Assembly: GCA_027327685.1 (NCBI GenBank)
Contig: DAHVYL010000001.1
Span: 1-21,862, forward strand
From: Candidatus Woesebacteria bacterium
GTDB taxonomy: Bacteria; Patescibacteriota; Microgenomatia; UBA8517
DNA: 21,862 nucleotides
Reading direction: 5' to 3'
Positions 3,888-13,417 of the stretch are shown piece after piece; the stretch's first letter is position 1, and every line of letters starts with the position of its first letter. The notes below the pieces were generated by a model. It saw only the letters and a program-made list of their open reading frames with translations. It ran no database searches and had not been told where the DNA came from. A program made the translations under genes and the position numbers.

Positions 3888-6005
3888 ATGAGCAAGAAGA
3901 GAAAAAGATTCACAAAGAGGTCATTTAAGTTGAAATTAAAAAAGGAGTCGATGTTTTCGATTTCTCAAATTATCTTCTTTTCGATAGCAGGGCTTATTCT
4001 TATTTCTTTTTCGCGCCAAGGAATGATTCTTGCAGGATTTAATGAGTTTCTTTTGAAATATTTTTCCTGGTCATCAATCTTTTTGCCCTTTATCTTTCTT
4101 TCATTTGCTCTCCTTCTTTCAAAAGTTAAATTTGTTTTGGGTCAGCCCAATGTAGTTGTCGGCGGAATTCTTTTCTTCATTTCCGTGATGGCACTCGGCC
4201 GTGCCGGAACGGCCGGGGAGACGGTTTGGGCTTCGATTGCGGAGCTTGTGATGGGAGTTGGGGCAGGAATTATTTTTGTAGGCGTAGGGATGATTGGCTT
4301 GATAATTCTATTTAATACATCAATTGATCAAGTTTATAAAATCTTCAAAGAATTTTTCAGACAGGCCGGGGTTTATATATATGGCGGTAAAACTCAGATA
4401 AAAGTTGGCGGTGGGATACTTCCGAAAGGGCAGATGAAAGTTACGGGAGGAACCTTTACCACATCCGGTGGAGTAAAACAGGGGGCCTCTCCCACTCCTC
4501 CCTCCAAGGAACCGTTAGAACAAAAACTTGTGAGTAATGTTCCGGGTGAAGAAACTGTCTGGAGATATCCAACGATGGACATATTTGGGGAAGTTGACGG
4601 AGGACACGCAGAGAGGGGAGATATTAAGGGCAATGCTGCAACAATAGAAAAGACTTTGGAATCTTTCGGGATTACTGCAAATGTGGTTGAGGTTAATCTC
4701 GGACCGGCTGTCACCCAGTATGCAATAGAAGTAGCTCTTGGCACAAAACTTTCCAAAATTACTTCCCTGGAAAGGGATCTGGCACTCGCCCTTTCCGCAC
4801 CCACGGGAACCATCAGAATTGAAGCCCCGATTCCGGGCAGAAACCTGGTGGGAATCGAACTTCCCAATCGCTCTGCCGAATTCGTACCGCTTAGAAAAAT
4901 TATGGAATCTCAGGAAATGCAGGGAGCGAAGTCTAAGCTTGAAGTTTCCTTGGGACTCGATGTTTCGGGAAAACCCATTGTCGCCGATATTGCAAAAATG
5001 CCTCACATTTTGATTGCCGGGCAGACAGGTTCCGGTAAATCTGTTTGTATAAACGCATTTTTAATTTCCCTTCTTTTCAGGGCGGCCCCGACGGAGGTAA
5101 AACTTATCTTGGTTGATCCTAAAAGGGTTGAGCTGACCCGCTATGGTGGTATTCCGCACCTTCTTGCGCCGGTCATTGTTGAACCTGATAAGGTTATTTC
5201 GGCACTTCGCTGGATTTTGAGCGAAATGGATAGGCGCTATAAGCTTTTTGCGCAGGCCGGAGCCAGGAACATTGATTCATATAATGAAATGTCCGGATTC
5301 CAAGCACTTCCCTATATTGTTCTTTTTATCGATGAACTTGCCGATATTATGCTTTTTTCACCCGTTGAAGTTGAGGACTCAATTACAAGGATTGCCCAAA
5401 TGAGCCGGGCAACCGGAATACACATGGTATTGGCCACCCAGAGACCTTCGGTTGATGTTATAACAGGACTCATTAAGGCAAACGTTCCGAGTAGGATTGC
5501 TTTTGCTGTTGCCTCCCAGGTCGACTCTCGAGTTATTTTGGATACACAAGGTGCTGAGAAACTTTTAGGCCGGGGGGACATGCTTTATCTTCCTCCAGAA
5601 CAGGCTAAACCAGTCAGGATTCAGGGCGCGTTCGTTGGTGATAAAGAGGTGGCTGCCCTTACGTCGTTCCTTAAGAACCAAGGGGTAAATCCTCAATACA
5701 CGGATGAGGTGACAACAATGGCTAAGGCAGGAACGGTTTCCGTTCCCGGCATTGACGGTACGGTGGATGATCTTTTCAAAGAAGCCGTGAGAATTGTTTG
5801 CCAGTATGATAGAGCCTCGGCCTCGCTTCTTCAGAGAAGACTTTCAATAGGCTATGCCCGTGCTGCTAGAATTGTTGATCAACTGGAAGCTGCCGGGGTT
5901 ATTGCAACCAGCGAGGGTGGAAGCAAAGCCCGAGAAGTATTAGTGCAAAATGCCGATGAGTTTTTAGCCTCCTTCGGAAATCCCCCCTCAGAACAATCGT
6001 CATAA
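3888..6005 (+). CDS. ftsK: DNA translocase FtsK/SpoIIIE
   Basis: FtsK pumps chromosomal DNA through the closing division septum. The 705-residue protein has a basic start, about four membrane segments within the first 150 residues, then a short linker rich in Gly, Thr and Pro in place of the long linker of E. coli FtsK. The alpha/beta RecA-like motor follows, with Walker A GQTGSGKS (378-385), Walker B LFIDELAD (about 479-486) and the MSRATGIHMVLATQRPS segment. The C-terminal 75 or so residues form a winged-helix gamma domain (SLLQRRLSIGYARAARI), which in known FtsK reads KOPS/SRS DNA signals and activates XerCD. All domains appear intact. A weak promoter-like pair (TTGAGG, 18 bases, TACAAT) ends nine bases before the ATG. 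Confidence 0.97.
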   Translation: MSKKRKRFTKRSFKLKLKKESMFSISQIIFFSIAGLILISFSRQGMILAGFNEFLLKYFSWSSIFLPFIFLSFALLLSKVKFVLGQPNVVVGGILFFISVMALGRAGTAGETVWASIAELVMGVGAGIIFVGVGMIGLIILFNTSIDQVYKIFKEFFRQAGVYIYGGKTQIKVGGGILPKGQMKVTGGTFTTSGGVKQGASPTPPSKEPLEQKLVSNVPGEETVWRYPTMDIFGEVDGGHAERGDIKGNAATIEKTLESFGITANVVEVNLGPAVTQYAIEVALGTKLSKITSLERDLALALSAPTGTIRIEAPIPGRNLVGIELPNRSAEFVPLRKIMESQEMQGAKSKLEVSLGLDVSGKPIVADIAKMPHILIAGQTGSGKSVCINAFLISLLFRAAPTEVKLILVDPKRVELTRYGGIPHLLAPVIVEPDKVISALRWILSEMDRRYKLFAQAGARNIDSYNEMSGFQALPYIVLFIDELADIMLFSPVEVEDSITRIAQMSRATGIHMVLATQRPSVDVITGLIKANVPSRIAFAVASQVDSRVILDTQGAEKLLGRGDMLYLPPEQAKPVRIQGAFVGDKEVAALTSFLKNQGVNPQYTDEVTTMAKAGTVSVPGIDGTVDDLFKEAVRIVCQYDRASASLLQRRLSIGYARAARIVDQLEAAGVIATSEGGSKAREVLVQNADEFLASFGNPPSEQSS

Positions 6006-6113: not shown

Positions 6114-6746
6114 ATGAAGAAAATAGGTCAGATCATGGAAAATGCCCGTAAGGAGAAAAATTATTCCCACCAGAAGCTTGAGGAGATCACAAAAATAAAA
6201 TCATCCTTCATTGCGGCAATCGAAAACGAGAATTGGCAGGCTCTGCCCTCTTTTCCGACAGTGCTCGGATTTGTTAAAAGTATTTCCTCCGCTCTTTCTA
6301 TAGACGAAAGGATGGCGGTGGCAGTCTTGAAGCGCGACTATCCTCCTAAAAAATTAAGTATAAACCCAAAACCCGATATCTCCTCAAAACCATCCTGGAA
6401 TCCGAAGTTCACATTTATATTGGGAATATCATTGGTGATTGCCCTTATTTTAGGATATTTGGCTTTCCAATACATAAAATTTACATCACCTCCAAAGATT
6501 GATCTTGTTAGTCCGGTAGAAGGACAAATTGTGAGCGGGAATTCTGTTTTGGTTTTTGGTTCGACCGATATGGATGTAAAAATAACAGTCGATAATCAGC
6601 CAGTTTTGGTGGATGAAGACGGAAAATTTTCTACGGATCTAGAAGTTTCGCCAATGGCGGAAGAAGTTGTTGTAAGAGCCGTTTCTAGGTCTGGAAAAGA
6701 AACGGTAATAGAGCGTAAAATAGAAGTGCAACAATCAACTAATTAA
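6114..6746 (+). CDS. RodZ-like HTH membrane protein with C-terminal beta-sandwich
   Basis: The first 70 residues form a Cro/CI-type helix-turn-helix of the RodZ kind (GQIMENARKEKNYSHQKLEE, then AAIENENW and LPSFPTVLGFVKSIS). A Pro/Lys linker and one membrane segment at about residues 99-121 follow. The outer 90 residues start with SPVEGQIVSGNSVLVFG and read as an Ig-like, glucodextranase-B-type repeat, not the usual RodZ C-terminal domain. RodZ links cytoskeletal MreB to the elongation machinery in rod-shaped bacteria; that role here is inferred from architecture. It lies between ftsK and a small membrane protein, with 14 bases to the latter. No MreB gene is visible in this window. Confidence 0.8.
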   Translation: MKKIGQIMENARKEKNYSHQKLEEITKIKSSFIAAIENENWQALPSFPTVLGFVKSISSALSIDERMAVAVLKRDYPPKKLSINPKPDISSKPSWNPKFTFILGISLVIALILGYLAFQYIKFTSPPKIDLVSPVEGQIVSGNSVLVFGSTDMDVKITVDNQPVLVDEDGKFSTDLEVSPMAEEVVVRAVSRSGKETVIERKIEVQQSTN

Positions 6747-7012: not shown

Positions 7013-8821
7013 ATGAGCACAGATGAGATTCGGAAAAGATATTTGGAATTTTTTAAGAAAAACGGCCACATTGAAATTACTCCCAGTCCGCTTGTAATAG
7101 ACTCCGATCCCACAACTCTTTTTACCTCGGCCGGCATGCAACAATTAGTACCTTTCTTAAAGGGTGAAAAACACAAAGATGGGAAAAGGTTGGTAAACAT
7201 TCAACCATCCATTCGTATGCAGGATTTAGACGAGGTTGCGGATAATCGACATTTTAGTTTTTTTGAGATGCTGGGTAACTGGAGTTTGGGGGATTATTTT
7301 AAAAAAGAACAGCTTTCCTGGGTTTGGGAGTTTTTTACTCAAGAGCTGGGGCTTAATCCGGAAAAACTCCACGTGTCCGTTTATGCAGGTAATGATGAAG
7401 TTCCAAAAGACACCGAATCCTTTGAGATTTGGAAAAAAATAGGAGTGTCCGAAAGCCATATTCATTTTTATGATGCTCAGAAAAATTGGTGGAGTCGTGC
7501 CGGCGAGCCTTCTAAAATGCCAACCGGAGAAATTGGCGGACCCGACAGCGAAATATTCTACGAGTTTAAGAGTGTTTCCCATGACCCCAGATTTGGTAAG
7601 TTTTGCCACCCGAATTGCGACTGCGGAAAGTTTTTGGAAATCGGCAACTCCGTCTTTATGCAGTATCAAAAAATGGAAGACGGGAAACTTATGGAGCTGC
7701 CTCAAAAAAATGTGGACTTTGGGGGAGGTCTGGAAAGAATTGCGGCTGCAGTTTTGGATAGTCCGGACGTTTTTCATATAGATATATTTTCCGGCGTCAT
7801 CAAAAAAATTGAGAAGGAAACCGGAATTGAATACAACTCTGATTCCGGCAAGGATAAAAGCTTCCGTATTATTGCGGATCACCTTAGGGCGTCCGTAAAT
7901 CTGCTGAGTGAAGGGGTAATTCCCGGAAACAAGCTTCATGGTTATGCATTAAGAAGATTAATTCGCAGATCAATGTTTCACTTTCATCTTTTGGGATCGG
8001 GGATTTCCGGGGGAGCAATTTCTCATATAGCGGAAGAATATAGGAGATTTTACCCTAATGTTAATAAAAATTGGCAGTTTATCGAGGACAACTTAAATGC
8101 CGAAGCCACGCGTTTTGAGGCTGCCTTAAAAAGAGGCTTAGCAAGATTGACCAAGGCCGTTTCCGGAGGAGACGAAATAGATGGAGAGTTTGCCTTCGAT
8201 CTTTATCAGACAGAAGGTTTTCCGCTGGAGCTGACGATGGAAATTCTCAGCCAGAACGGCATGGTTTTTTCCCTGGTAGAAAGAAATGCCTTTGAATCAG
8301 AGTTCGAGAAGCACAGGCAGTCTTCACGAAGTGCCTCAGTAGGGATGTTTAAAGGTGGTCTTGCCGAAGCCTCCGTTGCTACTACCAAACTCCACACTGC
8401 GACACACCTCCTGCACGCCGCGTTGAGACAGATACTGGGTGATCATATCGGCCAAAAAGGGAGCCATATAACAAGCGAGCGTTTGCGGTTTGATTTTTCC
8501 CATTCACAAAAACTTGCGGATGAAGAAATCAAGGGAGTTGAAAATCTGATCAATCTCAAAATAAAAGAGGATTTGCCGGTTAGTTTCAAGGTAATGAGTC
8601 TCCCCAATGCCATAAAGGAAGGTGCAATGCACTTTTTTGCCGAAAAATATGGCGACGAGGTAAAGGTTTATACAATTGGGAATTCGGGTGAGGTATGGTT
8701 TTCCAAAGAAGTGTGCGGAGGGCCCCACGTTACTCACACAGGAGAGATCGGTGGTGTTAAAATAATTAAACAGGAAAAAATAGGGTCGGGAATACTGCGG
8801 GTCTATGCGGCTCTAAAATAA
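7013..8821 (+). CDS. alaS: Alanine--tRNA ligase, short form without C-Ala domain
   Basis: AlaRS charges tRNA-Ala. Class II motifs are visible: motif 2 region HFSFFEMLGNWS near residue 80 and motif 3 GGGLERI at 237-243. A cysteine-rich CHPNCDCG precedes FLEIGNSVFMQY. After the tRNA-recognition helices comes the editing domain with H461-x3-H465 in HTATHLLHAAL and C568-x3-H572 in CGGPH, where most AlaRS have CGGTH. The protein ends about 30 residues after that site, at 602 residues instead of the usual 850-880, so the linking helices and C-Ala domain are absent. Both aminoacylation and Ser/Gly editing centres appear present. A TGATATACT extended -10 ends six bases before the ATG, suggesting a leaderless transcript. 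Confidence 0.97.
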   Translation: MSTDEIRKRYLEFFKKNGHIEITPSPLVIDSDPTTLFTSAGMQQLVPFLKGEKHKDGKRLVNIQPSIRMQDLDEVADNRHFSFFEMLGNWSLGDYFKKEQLSWVWEFFTQELGLNPEKLHVSVYAGNDEVPKDTESFEIWKKIGVSESHIHFYDAQKNWWSRAGEPSKMPTGEIGGPDSEIFYEFKSVSHDPRFGKFCHPNCDCGKFLEIGNSVFMQYQKMEDGKLMELPQKNVDFGGGLERIAAAVLDSPDVFHIDIFSGVIKKIEKETGIEYNSDSGKDKSFRIIADHLRASVNLLSEGVIPGNKLHGYALRRLIRRSMFHFHLLGSGISGGAISHIAEEYRRFYPNVNKNWQFIEDNLNAEATRFEAALKRGLARLTKAVSGGDEIDGEFAFDLYQTEGFPLELTMEILSQNGMVFSLVERNAFESEFEKHRQSSRSASVGMFKGGLAEASVATTKLHTATHLLHAALRQILGDHIGQKGSHITSERLRFDFSHSQKLADEEIKGVENLINLKIKEDLPVSFKVMSLPNAIKEGAMHFFAEKYGDEVKVYTIGNSGEVWFSKEVCGGPHVTHTGEIGGVKIIKQEKIGSGILRVYAALK

Positions 8822-8824
8822 TTT

Positions 8825-11041
8825 ATGAACCTCAAAGATTTTTTGACAAGTAGAGATAGCCCCCCGGAACTTTTCTGGGCGCTTGTCATTGAAAAAGGAT
8901 TGGTACAATCCGGAATTTGGTATGTAGGAGAAGGAACGGCTGAAGTTGTCGGTGTGGGAGCCGGAATTCCCTGGGAAAGTGAAAGCGAGTTGATCGAAGC
9001 AACAGATGCCGCTCTATCCTCGGCTATACAAAAACTGCCGGACAATTATCCGGAACCCCAAAAAACTGTTTTTGGTGTATCTACTTCTTGGGTAAAAGAC
9101 GGTGAAATCTCTCCCGAAAATTTGGGTAAAATAAAAAATCTTTGTACGGAACTTTCACTGACTCCGGTTGGTTTTGTGGTTTTACCCGAAGCCATAGCTC
9201 ACCTTTACAAATCTGAAGAAGGCACCCCTCTTAATGCAATTGTTTTAAAGTCCGGTGATGAAAATCTAGAGCTCTCAGTTTTTAAATTGGGAGAATTGGT
9301 CGGTACGACCGAAGTTTCAAGAAGCGTTTCCTTGTCGGATGATGTTGTAGAGGGTCTTTCCAGGTTCGACGGTGTAGCCCCGCTTCCTACCAGATTTGTA
9401 GTTTACGATGGCAGGGAGGGAGACATGGAGAATGTAAAACAAACCCTGATTAAGGCAAATTGGAGTGAGGGAAAAATCAATTTTTTACACACCCCGCAGG
9501 TTGAAATATTGGCAACAGATAGAAAAGTTTTAGCAACAGCGCTTGCCGGAGGAGCCGAAATTGGAAATGTAACATCCGTTGTGACCAGCGATGAAAGTGA
9601 GGAGGAGCAAGTTATTGAAGAAGAGAATGAGGCACCCCCCCAGGAACAAAAACCTCTTTCTGCAGAGAGCCTCGGTTTTTCAGTCGGCGGAGATGTTTCT
9701 TCCATGAAAAAGGAAGATGTTCAAAACATTATTCCTGTGGAGGATCATGGAACCACGGAAGCTCCCCCTCAATTTGCTCAACCCCAACCCCGCCCCCCCG
9801 GTGCTATCGGTGCCACCCCTGTAAAGATAGCGACGGATTATTTGGCCAAGTCCAAAAGTTTATTTCATTCGTTTTCGAGAATGTTCCCCAAAATAAACGC
9901 TCTTCCCGGCGGTAAAAATAAAAGTTTGATGATAGCTTTAGGAGCTTTGGGGCTTGGGTTTGTTGCGGTTATCGTTCTGTGGTGGTTTGTGCAGGCTGCA
10001 AGAGTAACCATTTTTGTAACTCCGAAAAGAGCCGAGGAAAATGTGCAGATCGTTTTTGACGGTGGCGGTCAGTTTGACAGGGAAAACGGCATAATTCCTG
10101 CCAGAGTTTTGACGGATCAGGTATCTGGAGAAAAAACAAAATCGACAACGGGTACGAAACTGATTGGCAATAAGGCAGCCGGAACTGTACAAATTGCTAA
10201 CGGAAACGGGACTGCTATAAATCTGTCTGCCGGAACACTGTTAGTCTCATCCTCCGGCTTTAAATTTGTAACGGACAATGAAGCCTCCGTCTCCGGACAG
10301 CTTTTACCGGGTTCGCCAGGAACGGCAACGGTAGGAGTAACCGCATATGATATCGGATCTCAATACAATCTTGCCAAGGGTGAAGTTTTCAGTGTCGGAA
10401 ATTATTCAAAAGCACTTGTTGCCGCAACCTCAACGGCAGATTTTAGCGGAGGAAGCAGCCAGCAAATTTCGGCTGTGAGCAAAGAAGATCAGATGGAACT
10501 GGAAACCGGTCTAAAGAATGAACTTAGCCAAAGCGCCAGAACAAATTTGTTGACTCAGGTGTCCGGTAGCGAAGTCTTTGTCAGTGATTTGGCTGCGCTT
10601 GATACGGTGAATGAGAATTTTGATAATGAAGTGGGGGATCAGGCTGATAGCCTCAAACTTTCACTTCAACTTAGTGCAACCGGACTGGCGGCAGATAGAA
10701 ACAAACTTCTGGATTATGCGAAAGGAGTTTTGGATAGCAAAGCTCCGGCAGGTTATTCCCTTTCTTCGGACCAGGTAGATTTTAAGTTTACCTTCGTAGG
10801 CGAAGAGAACGGTAAGTACACTTATGACACTGTAGTTGGGGGCAATTTCCTACCGAATGTTGATACGGAAAAAATCAAAAGCATAATATTGGGCAAAACC
10901 GCATCTGTGGCTACAGATTATTTAAATTCAATTCCCGGGTTTGATCATGCAGACGTTGCTTTGAAAATTAAATTCCCCACCCCTCTTAAAACCATTCCGA
11001 GAATTTCCAAAAATATTGTCATAGATATCAAACCCGAGTGA
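8825..11041 (+). CDS. Membrane fusion protein: degenerate FtsA/PilM-like domain plus baseplate-J-like outer region
   Basis: This 738-residue protein has three parts. Residues 1 to about 250 follow the strand/helix pattern of an FtsA/PilM actin-like fold (for example VLPEAIAHLY, then FKLGELVGTTEVSRS, and LATALAGGAEIGN near the end), but both DxG-type phosphate loops are lost. Residues about 255-345 are an acidic and then Pro/Gln-rich linker. One membrane segment lies at about 367-389. The outer region 390-738 contains AAGTVQIANG, AGTLLVSSSGFKF and GTATVGVTAYDIGSQYN, the pattern seen in CPR proteins annotated as baseplate J/gp47-like. A role as a surface or envelope anchor connected to a cytoplasmic pseudo-actin is inference. 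It starts three bases after alaS without a Shine-Dalgarno sequence, and a sortase gene follows. Confidence 0.65.
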   Translation: MNLKDFLTSRDSPPELFWALVIEKGLVQSGIWYVGEGTAEVVGVGAGIPWESESELIEATDAALSSAIQKLPDNYPEPQKTVFGVSTSWVKDGEISPENLGKIKNLCTELSLTPVGFVVLPEAIAHLYKSEEGTPLNAIVLKSGDENLELSVFKLGELVGTTEVSRSVSLSDDVVEGLSRFDGVAPLPTRFVVYDGREGDMENVKQTLIKANWSEGKINFLHTPQVEILATDRKVLATALAGGAEIGNVTSVVTSDESEEEQVIEEENEAPPQEQKPLSAESLGFSVGGDVSSMKKEDVQNIIPVEDHGTTEAPPQFAQPQPRPPGAIGATPVKIATDYLAKSKSLFHSFSRMFPKINALPGGKNKSLMIALGALGLGFVAVIVLWWFVQAARVTIFVTPKRAEENVQIVFDGGGQFDRENGIIPARVLTDQVSGEKTKSTTGTKLIGNKAAGTVQIANGNGTAINLSAGTLLVSSSGFKFVTDNEASVSGQLLPGSPGTATVGVTAYDIGSQYNLAKGEVFSVGNYSKALVAATSTADFSGGSSQQISAVSKEDQMELETGLKNELSQSARTNLLTQVSGSEVFVSDLAALDTVNENFDNEVGDQADSLKLSLQLSATGLAADRNKLLDYAKGVLDSKAPAGYSLSSDQVDFKFTFVGEENGKYTYDTVVGGNFLPNVDTEKIKSIILGKTASVATDYLNSIPGFDHADVALKIKFPTPLKTIPRISKNIVIDIKPE

Positions 11042-11064
11042 CACCCCCATTTATGTAGTAGAAT
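11038..11064 (+). promoter_or_regulatory. Possible promoter of the sortase gene
   Basis: GTGACA (11038-11043) overlaps the stop of the upstream gene; after 15 bases comes TAGAAT (11059-11064), ending seven bases before the sortase ATG. Each hexamer has one or two mismatches to consensus. The spacing repeats the short-leader pattern seen at alaS and the zinc-ribbon gene. Confidence 0.35.
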
Positions 11065-11071
11065 TGATAGC

Positions 11072-11761
11072 ATGACGCAAAAAGCAATACTACGCCTGTC
11101 GGCCATTGTCTCCGGCATTTCAGGAATGACTATTTTGGTGGGGGTTGTCTACCCGATTATCAGTTATGATGCGACCTATTCCAAAAACTATACAAAATTT
11201 GTTTCTCCACTTGCTGATTCGGGGGGTCAGATCCAAGAGATTTTAACAACAGGGACAAGGGGGACGTCCGAGGGTACAAGGGCCAGTAGTTGGTTTACGG
11301 GTGGAGCTACTCAGGAAGATTTTTCTGTGCCTGTTGTTTCCTATTACAAAATCAGTATCCCAAAGTTAAGGATAGATTCGGCAACGGTTGCAATTGGTGG
11401 AGAAGACCTTTCGAAAAGTCTTATCCAGTATCCGGGGACAGCTCTTCCGGGTAAGCGGGGTAATGCCGTGATTTTCGGCCACTCCATTCTGCCGATTTTT
11501 AATAACCCCAAAAATTATATTTCAATTTTTACCATGCTTCCAACTTTAAAAAAGGGAGACCCGATATATATCAACTATGACGGTGTTTCCTATACATACA
11601 AGGTTGAGGAAATGTTTGAAGTTCTTCCTACCGATCTTCAGGTTTTGGATCAGGATACGAGTGATTCTTTTGTGACACTTGTGACCTGTGTTCCACCGGG
11701 GGATCCGAGGAAACCAAAAAGATTAATAGTTAGAGCCAGAGTTGTTCCTCCCGGAGATTAG
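11072..11761 (+). CDS. Sortase family transpeptidase
   Basis: Sortases cleave a sorting motif and join proteins to the cell surface or to each other outside the membrane. The 229-residue protein has one N-terminal membrane segment (about residues 8-30), a Gly/Thr/Ser-rich stalk to residue 80, and then the sortase beta-barrel. The catalytic set is readable: H137 in FGHSILP, C206 in LVTCVPPGDP and R217 in KRLIVRA. The TCxPPG form occurs in class D/E-like sortases; the exact class is not certain. No LPxTG-type substrate is visible in the window, although the preceding membrane protein is an obvious neighbour. A weak promoter (GTGACA, 15 bases, TAGAAT) ends seven bases before the ATG. Confidence 0.93.
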   Translation: MTQKAILRLSAIVSGISGMTILVGVVYPIISYDATYSKNYTKFVSPLADSGGQIQEILTTGTRGTSEGTRASSWFTGGATQEDFSVPVVSYYKISIPKLRIDSATVAIGGEDLSKSLIQYPGTALPGKRGNAVIFGHSILPIFNNPKNYISIFTMLPTLKKGDPIYINYDGVSYTYKVEEMFEVLPTDLQVLDQDTSDSFVTLVTCVPPGDPRKPKRLIVRARVVPPGD

Positions 11762-11796: not shown

Positions 11797-11817
11797 TATA
11801 ATATGCAAGCATATTAT
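11797..11817 (+). promoter_or_regulatory. ruvX -10 within an interrupted palindrome (possible operator)
   Basis: TATAAT at 11797-11802 is a consensus -10 ending 13 bases before the ruvX ATG. It overlaps the inverted arms ATAATATGC (11798-11806) and GCATATTAT (11809-11817), nine pairs separated by AA, which reach into the start codon. A dimeric DNA-binding protein here would cover both the -10 and the start; as RNA, the same arms would fold over the start codon. No good -35 is seen. Confidence 0.55.
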
Positions 11818-12202
11818 GAAAATATTGGGAATCGATTATGGAAAAAGTAAAGTTGGACTCTCGCTTGCCGACGGTCCTTTGGCCGAACCGTTAAAAGTAA
11901 TCAGATATAAAGACCCTGGAATTCTTAGGCAGGGAATAGAAAGGGTAATTAAAGAGGAAAGGATAGACAAGGTTATTGTCGGAGTTTCAGAAGGAAAAAT
12001 GGGAGAAGAGTCTAAGAAGTTTGGTCTTACTCTAAGTAAAAGATCGGGAATCACAGTTGAGACATTTGATGAAACATTGACTTCTCAAGATGCCCAAAGA
12101 ATGTCGGTTGAGGCGGGAGTAAGTCGGAAAAAGCGCCGTAAGATGGAAGATGCCTACGCTGCCACGATAATGCTTCAGAACTATTTGGATAGTCAGTCTT
12201 GA
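11816..12202 (+). CDS. ruvX: RuvX/YqgF-family RNase H-fold nuclease
   Basis: This is a 128-residue member of the YqgF family, linked to maturation of the 5' end of 16S rRNA and historically called a putative Holliday junction resolvase. Family motifs are GIDYGKSKVGLS with D7, IVGVSEGKMGEE, FDETLTSQDAQ with D85/E86, and MEDAYAATIMLQNYL with D112, giving the acidic RNase H-like active site. Length is normal. It lies 54 bases after the sortase stop behind its own -10 (TATAAT), and its start codon is inside an interrupted palindrome. Its stop codon overlaps the -35 of the next gene. Confidence 0.93.
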   Translation: MKILGIDYGKSKVGLSLADGPLAEPLKVIRYKDPGILRQGIERVIKEERIDKVIVGVSEGKMGEESKKFGLTLSKRSGITVETFDETLTSQDAQRMSVEAGVSRKKRRKMEDAYAATIMLQNYLDSQS

Positions 12203-12235: not shown

Positions 12236-12439
12236 ATGTTTAAAAGTGTTATTGCCCCGATGCAGGCCTGGTTGCTTTCCCAAGGGAGGTGTGTTGGTTG
12301 CGGAACTCCTCTGGCTGACGGTAAGGTTAAAAAGACAAAATATGGGGAGCAAGTGACTTGTATAAAATGCGGAAGGATATTTATTCATAGCCCCAAAACC
12401 GATAAATATAGAAGAGCTCTTCTTGAGGAAGTTGTTTAG
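12236..12439 (+). CDS. Small zinc-ribbon protein, function unknown
   Basis: The 67-residue protein carries two CxxC pairs, C19-V-G-C22 and C42-I-K-C45, about 20 residues apart, the spacing of a zinc ribbon. The N-terminal 17 residues are hydrophobic with a Trp (IAPMQAWLLSQG), and the tail is basic (HSPKTDKYRRALLEE). It resembles rubredoxin-like or ribosomal-protein-like ribbons in form only, and I do not recognise the family. A good promoter (TTGACC, 15 bases, TATACT with an upstream TG) places transcription start about four bases before the ATG. MltG follows after 27 bases, so the two may share a transcript. Confidence 0.8.
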   Translation: MFKSVIAPMQAWLLSQGRCVGCGTPLADGKVKKTKYGEQVTCIKCGRIFIHSPKTDKYRRALLEEVV

Positions 12440-12466: not shown

Positions 12467-13417
12467 ATGAAAAAGTTGCTGTTTTTACCACTTTTCCTGA
12501 TCATTATTGTCGCCGGGGTGAGTTTCTGGTTTTATAAAAACTCAAGACCTGTTTCAGATGCGGAAAAATTCAGTTATTTTATAATTGCAAAGGGTGCTTC
12601 GGCATCTCAGATCGGAAATAAACTTGAAAGCGCCGGACTAATAAAAAACGCTCTTGCTTTCAAGCTTTACCTACAATTTACTGGCCAGTCTGGAAAAATC
12701 CAAACAGGAGAATTTAGATTAACCCCTTCATATTCTCTTTTTCAAACCGCCGACGCTCTTTTTAAGGGCCCGATTGAGCTTTGGGTAACAATTCCGGAGG
12801 GATTGAGGCGTGAAGAGGTGGCTCAGAAAGTTGCCGCAACTCTGGGTAGGGACAGTTCTTTTGTTGCTGATTTCCTGCAGGCATCCGAGGGTAAAGAAGG
12901 CTATCTTTTTCCGGACACATACCTTTTTCCGAGGGATGTAGCCGCCTCCACTGTTGTTAAAAGAATGCTTGATACCTTTGCCTCGAGAACCGGCGATTTG
13001 GAAAATAGTTCCGGACTTTCATTTGGACAGGCAATTACTCTGGCGTCTCTCCTTGAACGGGAGACGAAAACCGACAAAGAACGTCCGGTTGTGGCAGGTA
13101 TTCTCATTAAAAGATTAAATTCAGGTTGGCCTCTTCAAACGGATGCGGCAGTGCAATATGCCGTGGGAACGTCAAAAGATTGGTGGCCGATTTTGACCTT
13201 GGATGATCTGTCAATAAAGTCTCCATATAACACCTATAAAAATCGGGGTCTTCCCCCGTCCCCCATCGCCAGCCCGGGACTTTCTTCCATAAAAGGAGTT
13301 TACAACCCAACCCAAAGCGATTATTGGTACTACATTCATGACGCAAAAGGGCAGATCCACTATGCCCGGACATTGGAGGAGCATAACACCAACATTTCTA
13401 AATATTTAGGCAAGTAA
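12467..13417 (+). CDS. mltG: Endolytic murein transglycosylase MltG
   Basis: MltG cuts nascent peptidoglycan glycan strands at the outer face of the membrane and so ends their elongation. The 316-residue protein has an N-terminal membrane anchor (residues 3-23), a LysM-like region with GASASQIGNKLESAGLI, and the YceG core. Core motifs are EGYLFPDTY, LASLLERET with the likely catalytic Glu at E197, LQTDAAVQYAVG, SPYNTY..RGLPPSPIASPG and a C-terminal TLEEHN. The set is complete and the length is near normal. It implies the organism makes a peptidoglycan wall. The start is the ATG directly before the lysine/leucine signal anchor; no Shine-Dalgarno sequence is seen. Confidence 0.95.
   Translation: MKKLLFLPLFLIIIVAGVSFWFYKNSRPVSDAEKFSYFIIAKGASASQIGNKLESAGLIKNALAFKLYLQFTGQSGKIQTGEFRLTPSYSLFQTADALFKGPIELWVTIPEGLRREEVAQKVAATLGRDSSFVADFLQASEGKEGYLFPDTYLFPRDVAASTVVKRMLDTFASRTGDLENSSGLSFGQAITLASLLERETKTDKERPVVAGILIKRLNSGWPLQTDAAVQYAVGTSKDWWPILTLDDLSIKSPYNTYKNRGLPPSPIASPGLSSIKGVYNPTQSDYWYYIHDAKGQIHYARTLEEHNTNISKYLGK

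Follow-up and report, generated by a model that had tools for sequence, protein, structure and literature searches.

We analysed a stretch of 21,862 nucleotides (the whole of which is referred to as the window) from a minute, probably host-dependent Candidatus Woesebacteria bacterium of the Patescibacteriota (assembly GCA_027327685.1, contig DAHVYL010000001.1), which is contig 11 of 83 in a 549,556-base genome of 87.5% completeness. The element of interest is an open reading frame (ORF) for a 738-residue protein, predicted to join an actin-like domain to a membrane-anchored outer region, together with the sortase ORF beside it. This focus ORF begins three bases past the end of alaS, and 30 bases lie between its own end and the sortase ORF. 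Both ORFs had been reported in an initial annotation of this DNA and both are present; judged by their conservation, the former is a genuine gene and the latter a genuine sortase gene. A relative of the focus protein was found in 74 of the 76 genomes searched (its own genome counted). Of the stretches fetched, 38 in all, two (L069 and L070) came from contig 1 of the two genomes in which no match was found; they were not counted, which leaves 36 loci. Profiles were made of the whole fused protein (A1), the sortase (A2), the fused N-terminal domains (A6) and a free-standing FtsA-like gene described below (A8); locus L046, which has two genes and no sortase, was omitted from A1, A2 and A6, and L039, which holds a run of X, from A6. 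The features of the two genes are as follows.

8825-11041, + strand: focus ORF, ATG start, 738 residues
8825..9559, + strand: N-terminal pseudo-actin domain, residues 1-245, as predicted by AlphaFold, Foldseek and hhalign
9560..9919, + strand: acidic/Pro-Gln linker, residues 246-365, from the sequence; little conserved in A1 except for one motif
9671..9694, + strand: linker motif LGF....D, residues 283-290 (Gly284 in 35/36, Phe285 in 36/36 and Asp290 in 30/36 proteins)
9923..9979, + strand: sole membrane segment, residues 367-385, by hydropathy script; helix 2-23 of the model corresponds to residues 367-388
9998..11038, + strand: beta-rich outer region, residues 392-738, by AlphaFold; it is the portion of profile A1 with matches beyond the class
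10166..10456, + strand: Baseplate_J barrel, residues 448-544 (PF04865, 27.9 bits against a cut-off of 21.1)
10481..11038, + strand: C-terminal alpha/beta part, residues 553-738, by DSSP of the model; no Pfam family above cut-off
11072..11761, + strand: sortase, 229 residues (PF04203, 6.5e-26; TIGR01076 above cut-off)

The initial annotation had read an FtsA/PilM-like fold into the N-terminal part and called this assignment its weakest link; it is now upheld both by the predicted structure and by a chain of sequence comparisons that runs through a free FtsA-like relative. An actin-like fold consists of two RNase H-like halves, each with the order beta-beta-beta-alpha-beta-alpha-beta-alpha. The AlphaFold model of residues 1-262, with 28 relatives as input, reached a predicted local distance difference test score (pLDDT) of 88.7 and a predicted template-modelling score (pTM) of 0.87, and in its secondary structure the elements are ordered as in the doubled RNase H-like fold of actins, in agreement with the fold search. 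Matches to 585 PDB chains were found for this model by Foldseek at E ≤ 0.001, led by PPX/GppA, PilM and FtsA, with E values of 2.3e-8 for PilM (5eox_A, TMq 0.58) and 2.7e-7 for FtsA (3wqu_B, TMq 0.62). Single-protein searches of Pfam, NCBIfam and the PDB with the focus protein returned no actin relative, and neither did profile A4 against the PDB, so that it is the structure prediction together with the free-standing relative that settles the actin-like relation. The profile of the fused domains matched that of the free gene with an hhalign E value of 1.5e-24 (probability 99.6, 229 columns), and the free gene profile in turn matched FtsA at 3.5e-35 over 364 columns, including sequence at the SHS2 position, a solved FtsA at 1.5e-26 and PilM at 9.2e-24. 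The 1C/SHS2 position is skipped by the fused profile in its alignment with the free gene, a placement made by position. The nucleotide-binding Asp was found at phosphate-1 in 0/36 aligned fused proteins and at phosphate-2 in 1/36 (one row being unreadable), and the DxG loops of the fused domain have thus decayed, as had been proposed.

Searched against 379 Patescibacteria genomes, the profile of the whole protein matched in 364 (327 of the 336 good ones). In the window's own class the match was near full-length in 32/32 sampled genomes; in other classes, among the matches listed, it starts no earlier than model position 226, which places its beginning in the linker or where the actin-like domain ends. 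Of twenty other-class loci (L162-L181), drawn from the stronger of the matches listed, 17 have the membrane gene preceded by an FtsA-like gene of 374-437 residues, upstream of it; no ORF intervenes in 15 of these and one ORF does in two (L177 and L181). The free partners stay under the cut-off of the FtsA equivalog model TIGR01174 (175.85 bits), the highest score among the 10 scanned being 120 bits, and a canonical FtsA above this cut-off is present in 30 of 31 genomes, the window's own included; the free gene is therefore an additional FtsA-like actin. The window's genome also encodes MreB and, on a different contig, PilM.

A tree of 62 proteins, in which 9 of the 35 A6 rows were used, separates the free and fused forms, by a branch with support 100/95, from FtsA and PilM on its other side; FtsA forms one group (100/99) and PilM another (100/100), and the fused rows are nested within the free rows. 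For this tree 13 of the 30 PilM loci were used, in one orientation only, and the FtsA row L185 (18% identity) was omitted. The phosphate-1 Asp is kept in 14 of 17 free relatives and lost in three, which indicates that decay had already begun in some free lineages; on reading the alignment, the second loop is altered in several. Within the window's class the two halves are fused, but one member has them apart: in L046 (genome G068, reverse strand) three bases separate an FtsA-like gene, open over 344 codons, from a membrane gene (525), with no sortase found by blastp, and this locus is an apparent evolutionary intermediate. The membrane proteins of L162-L180 begin with 80-90 residues that look like a small alpha/beta domain ahead of the linker (alignment A11, 13 rows). 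This start domain is missing in the fused form and has no significant relative in Pfam or the PDB. The genes downstream of some other-class copies appear to be ribosomal and offer no functional clue.

The outer region had been called beta-rich and baseplate-J-like. The first of these descriptions agrees with the AlphaFold model of residues 366-738 (pLDDT 88.3). The second holds for a barrel, identified by PF04865 above its curated cut-off, by diffocin and by Foldseek, and does not extend to the whole: the sequence likeness to Baseplate_J covers about 100 of the 350 outer residues, the match spans only profile positions 20-110 of 255, and no context of tail genes was seen, the sheath family matching in 0 of 15 genomes. 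PF04865 was matched at E ≤ 1 in 32 of the 36 aligned proteins. L095 and L096, which are short, were omitted from the outer-region alignment. Diffocin TRI-2 was matched by profile A5 at an E value of 0.0028 and by the more diverse A7 at 2.8e-6, and Mu gp47 was reached by sequence with A7 at only 0.064. Foldseek returned 19 PDB matches to the outer model at E ≤ 0.001, comprising 14 baseplate proteins (phi812 at 4.2e-7, diffocin at 9.6e-7 and Mu at 1.4e-5) and five matches to GlxA, a non-phage homologue of galactose oxidase; because GlxA has the barrel as well, the barrel need not be of phage origin. In the viral library the top matches of the outer model were unnamed proteins and named baseplate proteins, the named ones being mostly baseplate. 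A PHROGs search with the focus protein gave a chance match only (E 0.54).

Between the two domains, the acidic/Pro-Gln linker followed by a single membrane segment is as the initial annotation had it, according to the sequence and a hydropathy script. The LGF....D motif of the linker was absent from that description. Among 50 free membrane proteins, a loose pattern picks out a GF...D stretch in three (L162, L169 and L179), which may be chance. The flank of the membrane segment is more positively charged on the N-terminal side in 31 of the 36 aligned proteins and on the C-terminal side in three.

The sortase accompanies the fusion closely. A sortase lies downstream of 35/35 fused loci, directly in 34 of them and three ORFs further on in L048, and the pairing suggested by the initial annotation thus recurs in related genomes. 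It was found at none of the 21 unfused loci, namely the 20 of other classes and L046, as tested by profile A2 for L162-L181 (it was likewise used for L206-L235) and by blastp for L046. His137, Cys206 and Arg217, which we take to be the catalytic residues, are invariant in the 36 aligned sortases, the window's included, and the scores fall under every class-specific cut-off (classes C, D and E). One sortase was detected in the window's genome, in which, at 87.5% completeness, no LPXTG protein was found above cut-off; the C-terminus of the focus protein likewise shows no sorting signal with a membrane tail in its sequence. Two sub-threshold LPXTG matches in this genome, presumably an MraY-like membrane protein and a ComEA-like protein, were judged false on reading. 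Other sortases of related genomes (G046:C2:84031, G002:C3:6523, G007:C20:4513 and G001:C28:3245) have LPXTG-like C-termini no more than about 600 bases away, of which that near G001:C28:3245 is under the cut-off and that near G046:C2:84031 was inspected in its sequence. In contrast, the fusion-linked sortase has no such LPXTG-like neighbour.

We consider it probable, with some reserve, that the focus gene is the single-chain version of a two-gene Patescibacteria module and forms the pseudo-actin platform of a trans-envelope connector. In this module, as predicted from the sequences, an FtsA-like actin paralogue that differs from both the FtsA and the PilM of its genome is paired with a predicted single-pass membrane protein, which has an outer Baseplate_J barrel and is found nearly phylum-wide. 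The fusion is itself evidence for a joint function of the two genes where they are separate. In such a connector the actin-like part would be cytoplasmic, and, with nucleotide binding lost, it would neither switch nor polymerize under the drive of ATP and so would act as a fixed docking platform. The LGF....D motif might dock a cytoplasmic partner or fold back onto the platform, and the outer barrels might assemble as a ring or stalk that would thereby be tied to the cytoplasm, with the sortase perhaps attaching something to surface proteins close by or to this outer structure itself. Candidate tasks of the connector are growth or division, pili and host attachment.

The best reading of its working, by analogy, is that the connector would resemble PilM-PilN or GspL, apparently without being a member of either. 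In those systems the cytoplasmic part is actin-like and is either paired with, or joined in one chain to, a protein that crosses the membrane once and has a domain outside, and the tail of PilN docks on PilM. The focus protein has this layout but differs in its Baseplate_J barrel, its lost nucleotide motifs, the lack of a pilus gene among the neighbours scanned and the presence of a PilM encoded elsewhere. It has no Pfam PilM match (PF11104) and its direct profile likeness to PilM is weak, the fused protein gave no match at all to TIGR01174, and the GspL family was not listed for it in the Pfam and NCBIfam searches, which missed the actin relation too. The likeness of the free partner to FtsA extends over 364 columns and includes the SHS2 position; the free partner nonetheless scores under the equivalog cut-off and occurs alongside a canonical FtsA, and the fused form lacks the SHS2 region. 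As to the Baseplate_J/gp47 wedge proteins (diffocin TRI-2, phi812 and Mu gp47), they share the barrel of about 100 residues by sequence and lead the fold search, but the focus gene is cellular and its product membrane-anchored, no sheath family was found with it, and the remaining outer region is only weakly alike. The sortase has the sortase domain and the invariant His, Cys and Arg and yet stays under the cut-offs of the class C, D and E models, with no LPXTG protein above cut-off in its own genome.

Several observations weigh against the connector reading. Compared directly by hhalign, the fused-domain profile matches PilM (E 0.0013, probability 18) and FtsA (E 0.0084, probability 5) only weakly, and the sequence chain therefore hangs on the free gene. 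With a pTM of 0.61, the outer model gives TM-scores to baseplate proteins of only about 0.2, so that likeness can be claimed for part of the outer region only. The program that built the tree warned of long branches and of a possibly false join between PilM and FtsA. At 3 of the 20 stronger other-class loci a different gene stands at the upstream position, and among 28 genomes with weaker matches the FtsA-like neighbour is clear in six, weak in three and not shown in 19; here 1.5 kb around the match was covered, with merely 300-900 bases upstream of some genes. The pairing of the FtsA-like and membrane genes is common, not universal. Two related genomes (G052 and G055) gave no match to the focus protein. 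In G006:C27:2088-4191 the two halves of the fused protein are in two reading frames, and in G048:C1:10988-12139 the frame stops after the membrane segment; these broken frames may be assembly error, decay or a real split. Finally, the fusion and the sortase may each be one inherited event, and for this reason the 35/35 loci are not 35 independent cases.

Two other explanations keep the same anatomy and differ in the task assigned to it. We hold it to be rather doubtful that a pseudo-FtsA and its outer barrel form a growth or division connector, one that couples wall synthesis or cleavage to the cytoskeleton and acts together with FtsK, the RodZ-like protein and MltG. The free partner is indeed closest to FtsA, and ftsK, a RodZ-like gene and mltG all lie in the window, with mltG downstream in 34/36 loci; however, alaS and ruvX are neighbours too, so that the cluster may simply reflect an ancient array of housekeeping genes, alaS is upstream in only 11/20 and ruvX downstream in only 10/20 other-class loci, and FtsA itself is above cut-off in nearly all of the 31 genomes. 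A second pilus platform, in which the pseudo-actin would replace PilM and the outer half would align a type IV pilus or competence machine, strikes us as unlikely. The PilM of the window's genome is on another contig, pilus genes account for 0/11 of the neighbours scanned, and the Baseplate_J barrel of the outer region is to our knowledge present in neither PilN nor PilO. The idea that the protein is a scaffold for pili or attachment whose sortase processes surface partners, also part of the initial annotation, found no direct support, given the location of PilM, the lack of a sheath gene and the lack of an LPXTG protein above cut-off, and that annotation's interpretation as a whole is partly supported. 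What speaks for a pilus task is that PilM is among the best structural matches of the N-terminal domain and a strong profile match of the free gene, that type IV pili are widespread in Candidate Phyla Radiation (CPR) bacteria, as stated in PMC6744442, and that most type IV pilus genes are class I essential in Southlakia, according to PMC10633639.

The remaining two explanations dispense with the connector. A surface adhesin with a passive cytoplasmic anchor and no cytoskeletal role, whose sortase would display partner adhesins, would suit the loss of the nucleotide motifs, the sortase tied to the fusion and the near ubiquity reported for a sortase family in Microgenomates (PMC6744442). We nevertheless regard it as improbable, since both the LGF motif and the N-terminal domain are retained across the class, seemingly beyond what a mere anchor would need, and since many loci of other classes preserve, next to the membrane gene, a separate FtsA-like gene whose motifs are intact. 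A domesticated remnant of a phage tail or contractile injection system would account for the PF04865 match above cut-off and for the baseplate proteins that make up 14 of the 19 PDB matches and most of the named viral-library matches, but we think it highly improbable: the sheath family matched in 0/15 genomes, the window's own included, against 3/14 control genomes, the five other PDB matches are GlxA, and the protein has a membrane anchor and conserved housekeeping neighbours. A contractile injection system proper was rejected, there being no sheath family in these 15 genomes and, in the window's genome, a single and partial PF04865 match.

Matched in 364 of the 379 genomes sampled, and often beside a second FtsA-like actin, the membrane-plus-outer protein stands out as a strong candidate for a central component of Patescibacteria envelope biology, and the series from split to fused genes shows an actin becoming a pseudo-enzyme. 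A wider proposal, which we put forward tentatively as possible, is that of a near-universal Patescibacteria machine in which a second FtsA-like actin is coupled across the membrane to an outer baseplate-barrel assembly and serves the host-attached life common to the phylum, the window's class having one chain, a dead actin scaffold and a sortase that decorates the outer part. The second FtsA-like actin would then be beside the membrane gene in many genomes and perhaps elsewhere in others. According to PMC12206443, every cultivated member of the Patescibacteria lives on other microbes, and the mechanisms are still largely unknown. No description of the protein or of the pair was found in the open literature, as far as main text was available (PMC10849945 and PMC11665869 included), and the focus family may be among the CPR-enriched families left without annotation in PMC6744442, whose supplementary tables were outside the search. 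In the parts available, PMC10715143, on viruses of a cyanobacterial consortium, matches both 'baseplate J' and 'Patescibacteria', and PMC10768705, on TM7x, matches FtsA, PilM and Patescibacteria.

The other genes of the window that could be assigned are listed below, and those past 13545 are presumably rpoB, rpoC, rpsL and rpsG.

3888..6005, + strand: ftsK (PF01580, PF17854 and PF09397 above cut-off)
6114..6746, + strand: RodZ-like protein with an HTH_25 domain (PF13413, 2.8e-12; NF041534, 1.6e-9, under its cut-off)
7013..8821, + strand: alaS, the upstream neighbour (NF002436, 1.1e-195; directly upstream in 31/36 loci)
11816..12202, + strand: ruvX/yqgF (PF03652, 2.6e-26)
12467..13417, + strand: mltG (TIGR00247, 4.8e-61)

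Between ruvX and mltG, at 12236-12439, lies a 67-residue protein with two CxxC pairs, for which family searches gave no match. At the start of the window, positions 1-1047 encode a Lon-type AAA+ module that ends ahead of the protease domain (TIGR00763 profile positions 252-572 of 795). Since ORFs of 346-356 residues in four other loci (L039, L042, L053 and L062) match this module, its shortness is not an effect of the contig edge.

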